From Bacteroidota bacterium (GTDB taxonomy: Bacteria; Bacteroidota; Bacteroidia; B-17B0; Aurantibacillaceae): a DNA stretch of 61,098 bases. A program made the translations under genes and the position numbers. Where the stretch lies: contig JAJONO010000029.1 in assembly GCA_021323535.1 (NCBI GenBank), positions 1-61,098 on the forward strand, read 5' to 3'. Below are positions 29,574 to 43,466 of the stretch, piece by piece; position 1 is the stretch's first letter, and each line of letters begins with the position of its first letter. Under the pieces are notes generated by a model. It saw only the letters and a list, made by a program, of their open reading frames with translations. It had not been told where the DNA came from and did no database searches.

Positions 29574-31415
29574 TTATTTTTTGTAGACCTGTTCTCCTGC
29601 GATGTAAGTGGAGATAACTTTTATGTTCAGGATTTTATCTTCCGCGCAGTTCATCAGATCAGTATCCAAAATTACGAAATCGGCCCATTTCCCCTTCGTT
29701 AAACTTCCTTTTTCTTTTTCTTCAAAATTGGAATAAGCGGCCCAGATGGTCATGCCTTTTAAAGTTTCTTCCCTGGTAAGAGCATTTTCCATCTGGTATC
29801 CTCTAGTCGGAAATCCTTGTGCCACTGCTGAAGCTGAAGGCGGCACGCGGTTGGCATCCTTACGATACACAGCGGCGTAAAATGTTTTGAAAGGGGAAAT
29901 ATCTTCAACAGGAAAATCGGTTCCGAGTGCAATCCAGCCATGCGCCTTCAAGAGATCTTTAAATGCATACGCGGTTTTTACTCTTTCCTTACCTAAACGT
30001 TTGTCGGCCCAATACATATCGCTGGTGGCATGTGTAGGCTGGACAGAAGGCACAAAATATTTTCCGTATTGTTTCAGGTCTTCTTTGCTGATGATTTGTG
30101 TGTGTTCAATTCTCCAACGCATGTCCAATGAATCGATAAATTTTAATCCTGATTTTTCAATTGCGGGTTTAAGAAGACTCATCGTTTTTAACATGGATTC
30201 TTTCTCAGCTGCTTTTCCTTCGTAAATTTCAAGAATGGCTCTCACTGCTGAATCACCAATGCAATGTGTGTTCATTTGAAAGCCTAACATGTACATTGTA
30301 TCCGCCATTTTTCTGAAATAATCAATAGTGTTTAACATAAATCCGTTCCAGCCTGCTTTATCCGAATAATCTGTAAGTAAACAAGCGCCTCTCGAACCAA
30401 GAGCACCATCGCCATAAAACTTAAAGGAGCGGACATTTAATTTATCTGTTTTGTAGGGACCGGTCTTAATATAATGATCAAGGTTTTCCCTGGTTGGAGT
30501 AAGCATGGCGTAAACACGCATTTTGAGTTCGTTCTTTTTTTGAAGCTCGTCGATCACATCTATTACTTTTTTCTCGAGGCCAGCGTCGTCAATCGTTGTT
30601 AATCCAACCGCGAGACAATTTTTCTGAGCATTCAACAATGCACGCGCAATTTGTTCTTTCGATGCCTGAGGAATTTTTGTTTCTACAAGATCAACTGCGT
30701 TATCAACCAGAATACCTGTTGGCTCCCAGTATCTGCAATTATTGCCGCAGGCGCTTATTTTTGGAAGAACTGTCCACGAAGCATCTCTCCCTCTGGAATT
30801 CTGTATTTCTCCTCCGGAAATTTTTGTCTGATCGTTTATTCCTGCTAGTTGTAATGCTTTTTTATTGGCAAGAGCCGCATGTCCATCAATACGTTTTAAA
30901 AATACCGGCCTGTCTGGAAAAAGTGAATCGAGTTTTTTTCTGTCCGGAAATTCTTTTACATCCCAATCGTTCTGATCCCATCCTCTTCCAATGATCCATT
31001 GTTCTGCTCTGGCGGAACTATCAGTTTTTGAAATTTCTTTCGACAGATCGTGTTCTTTTGCAAAGGCCGTAGTTTTTTCAATTACTTCGGCGAGAGATTT
31101 TGTTCCAACAAGATCCACTTCATTCAATCCTTTGCCATACCCGTAAAAATGACAATGCGCGTCAATGAATCCCGGGAAGATAGAATTTCCTTCGGCATCT
31201 TTTTTTTCTTTTGAAGTATAACGCTCAAGAATTTCTTCATCGCTGTTTACGGCAAGAATTTTTCCGTCCTTAATTGCCATTGCCTGCTGAACAGAAAAAA
31301 TAGAATCTACAGTATAAATTTTAGCGTTAAAAATAATAAAGTCTGCTTCCAGTTTTGGATCAGAACAGGAAAAAAGTCCCGCTACGCAGAATAATATGAT
31401 GAGTTTCTTTAAAAT
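29574..31415 (-). CDS. Amidohydrolase (YtcJ-like) lipoprotein, probable ATT start
   Basis: 613 residues if started at the ATT at 31415. Reading from there gives MLKKLIILFCVAGLFSC, a textbook lipoprotein signal. EADFIIFNAKIYTVDS follows, the first beta strands of the amidohydrolase composite domain. The catalytic barrel shows the metal motif GFIDAHCHFYGYG and ends near ALGTDFPVEDISPF. The first ATG in frame (31280) would delete the signal and these strands, and there is no ATG, GTG or TTG upstream of it. The ATT overlaps the stop codon of the DUF4421 gene. YtcJ-type enzymes hydrolyse amide or ester bonds of unknown substrates; this one should face the periplasm. Confidence 0.85.
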   Translation of the reverse strand: MLKKLIILFCVAGLFSCSDPKLEADFIIFNAKIYTVDSIFSVQQAMAIKDGKILAVNSDEEILERYTSKEKKDAEGNSIFPGFIDAHCHFYGYGKGLNEVDLVGTKSLAEVIEKTTAFAKEHDLSKEISKTDSSARAEQWIIGRGWDQNDWDVKEFPDRKKLDSLFPDRPVFLKRIDGHAALANKKALQLAGINDQTKISGGEIQNSRGRDASWTVLPKISACGNNCRYWEPTGILVDNAVDLVETKIPQASKEQIARALLNAQKNCLAVGLTTIDDAGLEKKVIDVIDELQKKNELKMRVYAMLTPTRENLDHYIKTGPYKTDKLNVRSFKFYGDGALGSRGACLLTDYSDKAGWNGFMLNTIDYFRKMADTMYMLGFQMNTHCIGDSAVRAILEIYEGKAAEKESMLKTMSLLKPAIEKSGLKFIDSLDMRWRIEHTQIISKEDLKQYGKYFVPSVQPTHATSDMYWADKRLGKERVKTAYAFKDLLKAHGWIALGTDFPVEDISPFKTFYAAVYRKDANRVPPSASAVAQGFPTRGYQMENALTREETLKGMTIWAAYSNFEEKEKGSLTKGKWADFVILDTDLMNCAEDKILNIKVISTYIAGEQVYKK

Positions 31416-32509
31416 ACTTTATAGACTTTTGTTTGCTGAAACTTCTGATAAAATTTTGGAGTGCCTGTATGAAAGCGCCACCCGAAAGTAAAATTACCTG
31501 TTATGGAATTTGATCTGAAATCAATGATCTTAGGACTGCTGTACAAATTGTAATCGTTAGAGTAAGAACCAAGAATATAACAGCGTTTAAGATTTAATCC
31601 AAAAGACAAACGTCCCGTTCCGCTCCAGGAAATATAAGAGAGATGACGTGAACTGTTTCCTAAATCATAATGGCGCCATTGCTGCTCGGGACCAAGAGTG
31701 AAATATGCGCTGGCAAACCAGGCTTTGAATAATACAAGCGTACCAGCCGCGCCAAAATTCATACCTATATTTGTAGATTGAAATCCTTTTAATCCGCCAT
31801 AATCGTTGAAGAGAGGGCGAGCTTTCATAGGAATAACAGAGCTGTCGCTCTTGAGAGTATAAACATTAAAACTGGCCCCAATGATCCAGGTGAAGGCACT
31901 CTTCAGTTGACGATAGTTACAACCGAATCCTGATTTGTATGAAAATTTTTCAAAATTCGTAAAGTACATGGCGCGCGAACTGAACAGGCTGCTTTTAAGA
32001 TTTGGAAGTAAGTAATAATCGCCTGTTTTTTTGAATGTCGTGTCAAAATTTCCGGTGCTTGAATTATAAAACCCAGTAAACCTTCTGTAATAACTTTCCG
32101 ATACCCAGCGATTATCACCAAAGTTAAATCCGATATTGAATGTTTTAGTATACCCTTTTTTCGCGCTTTCGCTTTGAGGCGAACTTCTTGTTCCGAACGA
32201 AATCTGGAACTTATCATAATTAAACACAATACCACTGTTCAATTGCGATTCGGCTACGTAAACATGCGATGATAAACCGAGTGTATCTTTATTGATGAGT
32301 TGCTTGAATTCATTACTAAAATTTCGGTACTGCTGATAAATTCCAACGATCAGGACATAATCAAACTTCTGGTATCTGGTAGTATCCCAGTTTCTTACAG
32401 GGCCCTTTTTTGCTGTGGTATCTGCAACCGCTGTAGTAGAATCGGTGCGGGTCTGGCCCCTTGAAAGCGCCGTAAATAAAATGAAAACTATTATGAAGCA
32501 ATTACGCAT
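31409..32509 (-). CDS. DUF4421 family outer-membrane-type protein
   Basis: 366 residues. The signal peptide (MRNCFIIVFILFTALSRG) is followed by RNWDTTRYQKFDYVLIVGIY and then alternating aromatic/polar strands (FQISFGTRSSP, NFTFGWRFHTGTPKFYQK), consistent with a beta barrel. It matches the DUF4421 pattern of Bacteroidota; no function is established. It is the first gene of the tight operon with the amidohydrolase lipoprotein (7-nt overlap) and UbiD, so a shared envelope or import role is possible. Confidence 0.75.
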   Translation of the reverse strand: MRNCFIIVFILFTALSRGQTRTDSTTAVADTTAKKGPVRNWDTTRYQKFDYVLIVGIYQQYRNFSNEFKQLINKDTLGLSSHVYVAESQLNSGIVFNYDKFQISFGTRSSPQSESAKKGYTKTFNIGFNFGDNRWVSESYYRRFTGFYNSSTGNFDTTFKKTGDYYLLPNLKSSLFSSRAMYFTNFEKFSYKSGFGCNYRQLKSAFTWIIGASFNVYTLKSDSSVIPMKARPLFNDYGGLKGFQSTNIGMNFGAAGTLVLFKAWFASAYFTLGPEQQWRHYDLGNSSRHLSYISWSGTGRLSFGLNLKRCYILGSYSNDYNLYSSPKIIDFRSNSITGNFTFGWRFHTGTPKFYQKFQQTKVYKVF

Positions 32510-39885: not shown

Positions 39886-40443
39886 TTAACTCTTAATCTC
39901 CCTTATCTTTAATTTCTGCGCAGGGTTTCCCTGGTAAATCCAATAAGCTTCAAGACTTTTTGTGGCAACGCTTCCAACAGTGAGTAAACTGTGACTGCCT
40001 AAGCGTACGCCAGGACAAACCGTAGTCTGTGCACCGGCCCAGGCGCCTTCTTCCAGTGTAATTTCCCCAATGAGAAGATCGAATGTAGAGCGTTTATAAT
40101 TGTGGTTTCCGCAAAGCAGCATGGCGCCCTGGGAAACGCAAGAATTATCTTTTAAAGTTACTTTCGCAAGGTTGTCGATCCACACCTGCTCACCGATCCA
40201 GACATGATCTCCTACAACTAATTTCCAGGGATATTTGATGGATACGTGTGGTTTAATGGTAACATCCTTTCCCACTTTTGCTCCGAAAGAACGAAGCAGA
40301 AACCTTTTAAATCCATAGAACGGAAACGACGACTTAAAAAAATACGCGCTGACAAAATACCAGAGCGCTCTCTTAAACAGAGTGCCACCCGGTTTGTACC
40401 AGTCGTTGTTAAACGAAGAAAGATCAGTTTTTAGTTGCGTCAT
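39886..40443 (-). CDS. WcaF-type hexapeptide-repeat acyltransferase
   Basis: 185 residues. An N-terminal amphipathic segment (YKPGGTLFKRALWYFVSAYF) is followed by a left-handed beta-helix with hexapeptide repeats (VTIKPHVSIKYPWKLVVGDH, VWIGEQVWIDNLAKVTLKDN). SQGAMLLCGNHNYKRS carries the probable catalytic His. This is the pattern of WcaF/colanic-acid-type acetyltransferases that O-acetylate polysaccharide sugars. It is the last gene of the minus-strand glycan operon and overlaps the preceding glycosyltransferase by 20 nt. Confidence 0.88.
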   Translation of the reverse strand: MTQLKTDLSSFNNDWYKPGGTLFKRALWYFVSAYFFKSSFPFYGFKRFLLRSFGAKVGKDVTIKPHVSIKYPWKLVVGDHVWIGEQVWIDNLAKVTLKDNSCVSQGAMLLCGNHNYKRSTFDLLIGEITLEEGAWAGAQTTVCPGVRLGSHSLLTVGSVATKSLEAYWIYQGNPAQKLKIREIKS

Positions 40444-41581
40444 TAAATAACTTTTTATACTGTTCTATGCTTTTTCCAATGTTTAATTTTTCGCTAATAT
40501 ACTTAATTGCAGCGTTACTTTTAGCTGTAAATTCTTCATTATTCAATACGGTCAGACTCTTGATCGCATTCACAAATCCTATTTTGTTATCCAGAGAAAC
40601 AGGGAAGCCCGCGTTATTATTTTCAACATCGTTCCAGGGTGTCTGGTCGCTGATGATAACAGGACAGCCGCACAACAGACTTTCTACTATGGAATGCCCG
40701 AAGTTTTCATTAAGTGTAGGAAGAAACAACGCGTGATAAGAAGCGATCATGCTTTGCACCTCATTGAATTGTAGTTCTTGCCGGTACGTCACTTTAATAT
40801 TAGAAGGAAGTGTTTTAATGATCGTTTCACATTCTGCCCAATATTCTCTGTCTTCAATATTACCGTAAATATCATATTCAATATTGAGCCCGTTTTTTAT
40901 AAAAGATAAAACCTCCAGAGCGAAATGCAGATTTTTCACACGCGCCACGCGCGACAAATAAAATAATTTAATGTGATTTTCTTTTTTTGCCTTAGGAACC
41001 TGTACTACAGAACCGGAGTTTACATTTGCGGCAATAGAAACTTCAGCTTTTTTAAATTGCCTGAGTATATCACTTTTTTCCTGCTCGTTGGTGGCGTGAA
41101 AATGAACGTTATTATACCAACCCGCCAATTTAGCTACGGTGAGAAAACCAACTTTTTTCAGCGATTTTAAGCCCATAGCGCCTTTGCTGAGCATACCACG
41201 AGGGGCGAGCAGGAGAGGGGCCTTGATTAAGTTTTTCTTTTTAGCTCGAACAATGGCTATTGAAAAGTCGTAGGACCACAAACTGTTCAGGTAAATAAGG
41301 TCGGGACTGATCTCAGTGATGAGTTTAATAATGTTTGGACCAGTCTGGTTTTCCTTTGAAAAATAATGATAGTGAACATTTTCCCTTTCAAACAATTTGT
41401 TTGGTTCAATGCCGGAATAGGGTTTATCGTTTCCAAGATCCGTATTGGAAGTAACAATGTAAAAATCGAAATGATCTTTGAGTAACGTGACAAGAGAATA
41501 GATGGATCTTACAGGCCCACCGGCTTTCGTTCCAGGTAAATACCAGTCGATGAGAATGACTATTTTTTGTTTTTTACTGAT
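40424..41581 (-). CDS. GT4-family glycosyltransferase, probable ATC start
   Basis: 385 residues if started at the ATC at 41581, giving MSKKQKIVILIDWYLPG, a complete first beta strand and loop of a GT-B fold; AGGPVRSIYSLVTLL follows. The C-terminal half has the GT4 pattern (LFYLSRVARVKNLHFALEVL, PTLNENFGHSIVESLLCGCP). The first conventional start, a TTG at 41395, would remove 62 residues of the N-terminal Rossmann domain. No ATG, GTG or TTG lies between. The ATC overlaps the asnB stop codon region, as expected for a translationally coupled start. It should transfer a sugar to a lipid-linked or polysaccharide acceptor. Confidence 0.85.
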   Translation of the reverse strand: MSKKQKIVILIDWYLPGTKAGGPVRSIYSLVTLLKDHFDFYIVTSNTDLGNDKPYSGIEPNKLFERENVHYHYFSKENQTGPNIIKLITEISPDLIYLNSLWSYDFSIAIVRAKKKNLIKAPLLLAPRGMLSKGAMGLKSLKKVGFLTVAKLAGWYNNVHFHATNEQEKSDILRQFKKAEVSIAANVNSGSVVQVPKAKKENHIKLFYLSRVARVKNLHFALEVLSFIKNGLNIEYDIYGNIEDREYWAECETIIKTLPSNIKVTYRQELQFNEVQSMIASYHALFLPTLNENFGHSIVESLLCGCPVIISDQTPWNDVENNNAGFPVSLDNKIGFVNAIKSLTVLNNEEFTAKSNAAIKYISEKLNIGKSIEQYKKLFNDATKN

Positions 41582-43466
41582 GGCTGATCTTGTTTTGCTT
41601 TAACCAGTTATTAAGAACCACTAAATGCCATACACGGCTCCAGGTAACAGTCGGGTCGTTATTTAAAAAGCGATCCCATAAGTTTTTTACCTGCGTACCG
41701 TGACAAAAATCCATCTGAGCCAATTCGGAAATATTTTTCTCGCAGAAAGATTTCAATTCGTTTTTTAACCAATGAGCCCATGGTAATGTGAATCCCATTT
41801 TAGGACGGTCGATTATTTCTCTTGGAAGAAGGTCGCCCAAACTATCGGTCAGTAATTTTTTAGGCGTGTGTGGAAATTTATGTTCGTCGTTTACACTCAG
41901 GGCAAATTCAACAAGCTTATAATCCAGGAAAGGTTCCCGTACTTCGAGTGCTACGGCCATGCTCATCTGATCAGTGTCGCGAAGTAAAACATTTTGTAAA
42001 TAAGTATTGATCTCTGCAATAGAAACTGCGCTGAGTAAATGATCTTTCTTTTGGGGAACTTCTGAAATTATTTTCTCCATCTGATCAAACGCGTTTGTTT
42101 TTTTTACAAGAGAAGCCAGTTCCGGTTTTGTAAAAACTGTTCTTACGAGAGGATAAGCCGAGTTAAATGTAATTTTTGATTCACTTAACAATTCAGCAAT
42201 TTTATTTCCGCTCACCGAATTTCTTTTTTTCTTTATAATACTTCCTCCCATTTTCCTTGCAAATTGAGGAACAGAATTCAACCAGGCTTTTTTCTTCAAA
42301 TCATCCATTCGTTTGAATACGTCGTAACCGGCAAAGAGTTCATCTCCGCCAATCCCACTTAGCGCCATAGTTATTCCGGCTTGTTTGGTAGCTTTTGAAA
42401 CAATGTATGTGTTGGGGCCATCACCACTTGGGTGATCCATTGCGGCTAATGCTTCCGGTAATTGTTGAAGAAAATTATCAGGAGTTAATTTTATTTCGTG
42501 ATGTTCGGTGTTGAATTTCTGCGCAATGATCTTCGCGTATTTTGATTCGGAGAATTCACTTTCATCAAAATTCACATTAAATGTTCTGATCTTTTCTGAA
42601 CTTACCTTGCTCATTAAACCTACAACGGCGCTGGAATCAATCCCTCCCGATAAAAACGCGCCGAAAGGAACGTCGGCCACTAAACGCTGCTGAACAGAAA
42701 GAGCAAGCAATTCACTTACCCTATCGCAAATTTGCTTGTAGGAAAGTTCTTCGCTGATAGTAGAAGCTGAATTAACCGAGTAGTATTCAGCGACGCTTGC
42801 CTTGTTATCTTTAAATTCGAGATAATGTCCGGGCATGAGCATTTTTATTCCCTTAACGATCGTGTTTGGTGCAAGAACGGTTTGATACATGAAATACTCA
42901 GCGAGTACTTCCTTGTTAAGTGAAAATGTTTTTACTCCCGAATGAAGGATAGGACGGATCTCACTCGAAAACATAAATGCTTCGTCGCCATAATAATAAT
43001 ATAGTGGTTTTACACCAAGACGATCGCGCGCAATGAATGTTTTTTTCTCAACGGTATCATAAATGGCAAAAGCATACATACCGTTAAAGTAACGCAGACA
43101 ATCATTTCCCCAACGAATGTATGCGGCGAGTACAACCTCAGTATCTGAATTTGTTTTAAAAAAGTAGGGAAGTTGTGACGTGCCGTGTTGCGACCTTTGA
43201 AGCTCTAATTTTAAATCGCGGTAATTATAAAGTTCTCCGTTGTAAACAATCACATAACGTTTATCGTTCGAAAAAAAAGGCTGGTTGCTTTCTACACTTA
43301 AATCAATGATTGAGAGGCGTCGGTGACCAAAACACGCGTCATCTGCTCCCCAGGTTCCATCATTATCGGGCCCGCGGTGCGAAAGTGTTTTATTCATTGC
43401 TTTAACAATGCTTTCGCGTTTTTCGGAAGCGAATTTACCAGCTATGATCCCTGTGATGCCGCACAT
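41574..43466 (-). CDS. asnB: Asparagine synthase (glutamine-hydrolysing) AsnB-type amidotransferase
   Basis: 630 residues. The N-terminal class II glutaminase starts at Met-Cys2 (MCGITGIIAG; Cys2 is the nucleophile after Met removal), with SHRGPDNDGTW. The synthetase domain has the PP-loop FGAFLSGGIDSSAVVGLMSK. The C-terminus keeps EVREPFLDYKLVEFAL. It could make asparagine. Its position inside a glycosyltransferase operon fits the AsnB/WbpS-type enzymes that amidate surface-sugar precursors. The two roles cannot be told apart from sequence alone. Confidence 0.9.
   Translation of the reverse strand: MCGITGIIAGKFASEKRESIVKAMNKTLSHRGPDNDGTWGADDACFGHRRLSIIDLSVESNQPFFSNDKRYVIVYNGELYNYRDLKLELQRSQHGTSQLPYFFKTNSDTEVVLAAYIRWGNDCLRYFNGMYAFAIYDTVEKKTFIARDRLGVKPLYYYYGDEAFMFSSEIRPILHSGVKTFSLNKEVLAEYFMYQTVLAPNTIVKGIKMLMPGHYLEFKDNKASVAEYYSVNSASTISEELSYKQICDRVSELLALSVQQRLVADVPFGAFLSGGIDSSAVVGLMSKVSSEKIRTFNVNFDESEFSESKYAKIIAQKFNTEHHEIKLTPDNFLQQLPEALAAMDHPSGDGPNTYIVSKATKQAGITMALSGIGGDELFAGYDVFKRMDDLKKKAWLNSVPQFARKMGGSIIKKKRNSVSGNKIAELLSESKITFNSAYPLVRTVFTKPELASLVKKTNAFDQMEKIISEVPQKKDHLLSAVSIAEINTYLQNVLLRDTDQMSMAVALEVREPFLDYKLVEFALSVNDEHKFPHTPKKLLTDSLGDLLPREIIDRPKMGFTLPWAHWLKNELKSFCEKNISELAQMDFCHGTQVKNLWDRFLNNDPTVTWSRVWHLVVLNNWLKQNKISHQ

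Follow-up and report, generated by a model that had tools for sequence, protein, structure and literature searches.

Escherichia coli infC starts at AUU and is autoregulated by IF3. The start of Staphylococcus aureus infC is given as AUA and that of E. coli pcnB as AUU, and for S. aureus cvfC1 (AUU) and ccpN (AUA) a non-canonical start conserved in the genus is reported with ribosome-profiling evidence (PMC13009471). In Borrelia burgdorferi, the AUU of pncA is described as overlooked, the protein being longer than annotated (PMC13398362). For stop-start overlapping gene pairs, ATT is named as a codon allowing otherwise impossible -5 overlaps, and the value for ATT in E. coli, relative to ATG, is put at ~0.3% (Hecht 2017, quoted in PMC10666635). 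Bacteroidetes are described as having no Shine-Dalgarno (SD) sequences and as favouring A at -3 (PMC6847099).

The locus studied here lies in a 61,098-nt stretch of DNA (the window) from a Bacteroidota bacterium (genome G000), and order-wide searches took in 87 genomes. On the minus strand, an in-frame TAA is followed by AGT ATT TTA AAG AAA CTC ATC and, further along the amidohydrolase N-terminus, by a hydrophobic stretch and TTT TCC TGT (Table 1). The frame matches the Amidohydro_3 profile (PF07969) with 285.6 bits against a cut-off of 29.7 (E 1.5e-84); at E <=1e-10 only two PDB entries were matched, both uncharacterised metal-dependent hydrolases, and a search of its own genome gave one match. 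A UbiD-family gene lies downstream. The initial annotation had proposed a start at ATT on the grounds that no ATG, GTG or TTG exists between the upstream in-frame stop and 31280, and the sequence bears this out: the first such codon, the ATG at 31280, gives 568 aa, and the reading from ATT gives 613 aa with the ORF intact across 613 codons. The overlap that it described between this ATT (31415-31413) and the preceding gene's stop codon is likewise present, at 7 nt, with the TAA (31411-31409) of a DUF4421 gene on the same strand. No SD sequence is visible in the 36 nt upstream of the ATT, and an A stands at -3. The N-terminus shows a charged n-region, a hydrophobic stretch and a lipobox with its Cys (LKKLIILFCVAGLFSC, by a motif of our own), and the amidohydrolase is thus probably an exported, lipidated lipoprotein.

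Table 1. Features of the window (positions in the window) and the DUF4421/amidohydrolase junction in five genomes
Feature	Position	Strand	Basis or sequence
Amidohydrolase (Amidohydro_3) ORF read from ATT, 613 aa	29574..31415	-	ORF and profile match
Proposed start codon ATT, overlapping upstream stop (-7)	31413..31415	-	sequence
TTA, competing start position; TTG of G029 aligns here	31410..31412	-	alignment
AAG, competing start position; ATG of G003 aligns here	31407..31409	-	alignment
Predicted lipoprotein signal, lipobox L-F-S-C at end	31365..31415	-	motif
First ATG of the frame, conventional caller's start	31278..31280	-	ORF reading
DUF4421 gene (PF14391), ends ...V-Y-K-V-F-stop, overlaps ATT	31409..32509	-	profile and sequence
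Glycosyltransferase, second window gene without canonical start; ATC 41581-41579 proposed	40424..41581	-	
Asparagine-synthase-like gene upstream of glycosyltransferase; stop overlaps ATC by 8 nt	41574..43466	-	
DUF4421/amidohydrolase junction, window (G000)			AAAGTATTTTAAAG
DUF4421/amidohydrolase junction, G016			AAATTATTTTAAAG
DUF4421/amidohydrolase junction, G029			AAATTATTTTGAAA
DUF4421/amidohydrolase junction, G003 (L031 taken as same genome)			AAATTATTTTAATG
DUF4421/amidohydrolase junction, G028			AAATTCATTTAATG

Among the loci examined after the searches of the 87 genomes, DUF4421 directly abuts the amidohydrolase in five genomes. G016, a second species of the genus (~60% identity), has the identical ATT-TTA-AAG junction and no canonical start before the lipobox. 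In the -7 register, any NTG start turns the last upstream codon into TGN (Cys, Trp or stop), which means that no canonical codon fits at this junction without changing the upstream protein's last residue to Cys or Trp; the last residue of 31 DUF4421 proteins is L in 11, F in nine, I in eight, M in two and V in one. Relatives escape by another junction, TAATG in G003 and G028 and TTGA in G029. In the amidohydrolase tree, G016 groups with G029 (99/94) and then with G003 (100/99), G000 lying nearby without a resolved position, and in the DUF4421 tree G000 groups with G014, G023, G036 and G015 (96/92), the row of G016 being only 31% filled. These placements leave two histories for the start-less state: an early origin followed by two replacements, or more than one origin. 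The DUF4421 gene of G016 (L171) has been cut in frame to 113 codons, with both ends kept, and still reaches the overlap; that the reduced gene still runs into the overlap is a hint of coupling, but no proof.

The glycosyltransferase of the window, a second case that the initial annotation did not list alongside the ATT, has 68 start-free codons, its conserved N-terminus included, and its family was matched in 77/87 genomes. Starts were read in the best 30 loci of the family (25 from the genus and five others), 25 of which have a canonical start no more than three codons from the aligned position. Only AUH (AUC, AUU or AUA) is found near the start in 5/25 genus loci and 0/5 others, namely ATC in G000, ATC in G028 (with an ATT two codons earlier), ATC in G029, ATT in G003 and ATA in G023; in G029, an in-frame NTG occurs only >=15 codons upstream, within the upstream gene. 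In the ungapped alignment, these AUH codons stand one codon ahead of a column with TTG in most relatives, a point against the AUH reading. Measured from the upstream stop, these five and the two of the amidohydrolase all fall between -8 and +1 nt.

A third family, the PF04020 holin-family gene, was first met in samples of G001, G003 and G016 and is present in 79/87 genomes; its start was read in 39 of 40 genus members and in 17 hand-chosen genomes of the 39 matched outside the genus. At the start position the genus (n=39) has ATC in 22, ATT in two, ATA in one, CTG in one, ATG in 12 (one of them a codon earlier) and GTG in one. A non-NTG start is therefore present in 26/39 genus genomes (L319, G000:C134, and 25 other genus loci among L306-L334 and L406-L415), and ATG or GTG in 17/17 outside it. 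In the copy of G003, the match to the Pfam profile starts with the residue of the ATC. Across the 25 genomes with an AUH start, ATC occupies 22/25 start positions vs 36/334 at 16 other Ile columns (Fisher p=1.2e-16, a value overstated because the species are related), and one of these other columns is codon-invariant too, with ATA in 25/25. The ATC itself thus looks to be under selection.

The non-NTG holin genes lie <=10 nt from the end of the upstream gene in 14/26 cases and farther away in the other 12/26, so that reinitiation cannot be the sole route. Of those 12, ten show a -7-like box at a distance of 4-5 nt upstream of the start, and G012 and G031 have neither feature. A TAnnTT[TC][AG] box ending 4-5 nt before the start occurs at 16/26 non-NTG, 2/12 canonical genus and 6/17 outside loci, and at 0.007-0.012 per locus in shuffled sequences; the -7 box and the transcription start of F. 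johnsoniae are described as usually 4-5 nt apart (PMC6847099). The box often ends 4 nt before the holin start, as for a leaderless mRNA. With a strict box in four genome samples, no general excess before AUH was seen (3/1128 AUH vs 49/9240 other positions), and the leaderless feature is accordingly at most holin-specific.

Three scans were made for further cases. A coding-potential scan, which is blind to any gene whose next NTG is not far off, recovered the two window genes (amidohydrolase and glycosyltransferase) in G000; a prfB-like ORF and weaker hits were not accepted. In the former (L182:1817-2869, minus strand, G000), coding sequence of 54 codons precedes the first ATG, in line with prfB's programmed frameshift. 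A homology scan flagged nine G000 ORFs of 149 with homologues, two of which, again the amidohydrolase and the glycosyltransferase, were accepted by inspection. In the homologue-vote scan, 37/1408 testable ORFs had no NTG near the voted start: 25 holin, three glycosyltransferase and two amidohydrolase genes, and seven (L055, L107, two in L148, L153, L157 and L275) that were dropped on inspection as antisense or weakly supported. The 1408-ORF set is biased, many loci having been collected for these very genes, and no genome-wide share is derivable from it. Two further loci drew attention. Upstream of L296:7181-8347 (plus strand) and its relatives in G016, G019, G029 and G063, ~15 codons before the TTG are conserved across five genomes; the block was taken as a conserved upstream region, perhaps regulatory, rather than as coding. 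In G016, a Glycosyltransferase-2-like ORF (L290:3720-5681, plus strand) has its conserved N-terminus (QLSVIIVNYNVK) after a CTG, with no NTG for 38 codons.

From these comparisons, we consider it reasonably likely that the amidohydrolase is a lipoprotein gene translated from the ATT at 31415 by reinitiation without an SD sequence, as one case of an AUH habit of the genus. The initial annotation's proposal of ATT is supported: a start there agrees with the start-less second species and by AUH starts elsewhere, and the preference for ATT over its two neighbours is one that we infer from the alignment with M-L-K-N (15 genus loci start in this way where the window reads I-L-K-K), its being the sole near-cognate with a precedent and the AUH habit. 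Initiation could instead take place at an adjacent coupled position, AAG 31409 (-1 overlap) or TTA 31412 (-4 overlap), where G003 has its ATG and G029 its TTG, respectively. Both are ahead of ATT in start context as scored from the genome's own ATG starts, ATT reaching the 16th percentile and TTA and AAG the 53rd in G000 (21st, 41st and 76th, respectively, in G016), and the homologue-start vote lands on TTA (17/41 in G000 and 13/37 in G016); context scores and vote therefore speak against ATT. However, the other two gene families show AUH as their non-canonical codon, with a single CTG, and we know of no precedent for AAG or UUA starts, which leaves these positions as an unlikely alternative.

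A start at the ATG at 31280, the first canonical one, would yield a cytoplasmic enzyme, and length by itself says little here: in 434 kb of G000, 10/299 ORFs of >=150 codons have >=40 codons before the first ATG/GTG/TTG, so that the start-free length alone is weak evidence and the conserved protein encoded there is the unusual part. The stretch had been read as a lipoprotein signal followed by N-terminal strands, and rightly so, as both are common to homologues: most have the signal and the same strands, usually with an ATG directly before the signal. Homologues without the signal that begin at the internal Met were looked for and not found. Between G000 and G016, codons 18-45 show 10, 7 and 15 differences at positions 1, 2 and 3, the third position varying most; in the signal (codons 1-17), where no clear third-position excess is seen, the counts are 4, 8 and 9. 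A motif selected 16 lipoprotein-like ORFs from these 434 kb, and all but the amidohydrolase (15/16) have ATG, GTG or TTG in place; in a 255-kb sample of G016 the figure is 11/12, by a motif that is imperfect in that it did not pick the amidohydrolase of G016 itself. The twelfth (L204:7855-9118, minus strand) is a lipoprotein-like ORF without a canonical start that adjoins a run of A, its start or frame being unclear. With the residues upstream conserved and a product from 31280 that would presumably be without its first strands, translation from this ATG is quite improbable.

An error in sequencing or assembly, or recent loss of the start from a gene in decay, would fit a genome that is likely a metagenome-type assembly and an ATT one base away from ATG. 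Nevertheless, G016 has the identical junction, the ORF is unbroken over 613 codons and many genomes have AUH at further genes; because the junction of G016 is also start-less and AUH starts occur in two further families of the genus, an assembly error is very unlikely, and error and decay together are given hardly any more weight. A -1 frameshift at the DUF4421 end, producing a fusion protein, is barely credible: the amidohydrolase frame is indeed -1 to that of DUF4421 at ...GTA TTT TAA, but by inspection no fitting slippery heptamer lies in the upstream frame, relatives begin the amidohydrolase separately with ATG or TTG, and the signal would be buried within the fusion.

For translation from the ATT, the route may be as follows. 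A ribosome terminating DUF4421 at the TAA would shift back by one base and so bring AUU into the P site, the initiator tRNA would pair imperfectly with it, and the protein would begin with Met; this would be a case of termination-reinitiation. The yield may be low, because ATT is quoted at such a small fraction of ATG in E. coli. In E. coli, SD-less reinitiation, leaderless mRNAs and non-canonical starts are all reported to be inhibited when IF3 is raised, and once RRF is lost, non-canonical codons beyond a stop are said to become usable for initiation (PMC2268962). As a non-canonical start and SD-less reinitiation are both inhibited by IF3, synthesis of the amidohydrolase should be IF3-sensitive. 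Initiation at AUU, the reinitiation route, export and lipidation, and a low, IF3-sensitive yield are all put forward here as a reading of the sequences. IF3 is reported as required for 70S-scanning (PMC9031893), which weakens an explanation by that process.

In the genus, then, AUH codons would serve as starts for a small number of SD-less genes, frequently beside an upstream stop. The infC of G000 (L111, G000:C132, about 2136-1500, minus strand) has an ATC start behind GGAGG, and by reading of 45 infC loci a GGAG-type motif precedes ATC/ATT in 37 and is absent from six, the remaining two loci being truncated. Comparison of the order's genomes gave no explanation of the AUH habit in IF3 or in the anticodon arm of the initiator tRNA: the anticodon-arm pattern is present in 73/87 genomes, G000 included, and the one genus-biased IF3 residue by the filter used is Q at position 124, found in 17/19 genus sequences (L in 19, Q in four and K in three of 26 others). 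We tentatively propose, as a possibility to which we give less than even weight, that AUC, AUU and AUA are a regular, selected class of starts in the genus, placed at SD-less sites where an upstream stop or the mRNA 5' end has pre-placed the ribosome, and that such genes, the amidohydrolase and the glycosyltransferase among them, form with infC (ATC) an IF3-titrated set whose yield would go up when IF3 is scarce; the IF3 link is a proposal. If the genus does initiate at these codons without SD sequences, it would offer a natural system for studying the start-codon strictness of reinitiating or 5'-end-binding ribosomes. Callers limited to ATG, GTG and TTG would lose the export signal of the amidohydrolase and the N-termini of other proteins.

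In the literature searched, in which subscription journals were thinly covered, we recognised no account of recurrent AUC, AUU or AUA starts in a Bacteroidota genus. The likeness of the amidohydrolase to infC and pcnB is the AUH start, which the infC of G000 itself shares as ATC; however, infC has a strong SD (GGAGG), and none is visible upstream of the amidohydrolase. With cvfC1 and ccpN, the genus shares a non-canonical start, here a putative one, conserved among its members, but those two genes are directed by an extended SD, unlike the SD-less amidohydrolase that overlaps the upstream stop. Stop-start overlapping pairs with termination-reinitiation resemble it in that the start overlaps the upstream stop, although the overlap for which ATT is named there is -5 and that of the amidohydrolase is -7. 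B. burgdorferi pncA is, and the amidohydrolase would be, longer than the conventional call by way of AUU, whereas pncA is a single gene, not described in the available text of its report (PMC13398362) as part of a genus-wide set. Single-gene AUU starts are thus already in print (PMC13009471, PMC13398362). Single cases of AUC starts are known too, and by comparison with what those texts describe, a genus-wide set of AUH starts looks new.
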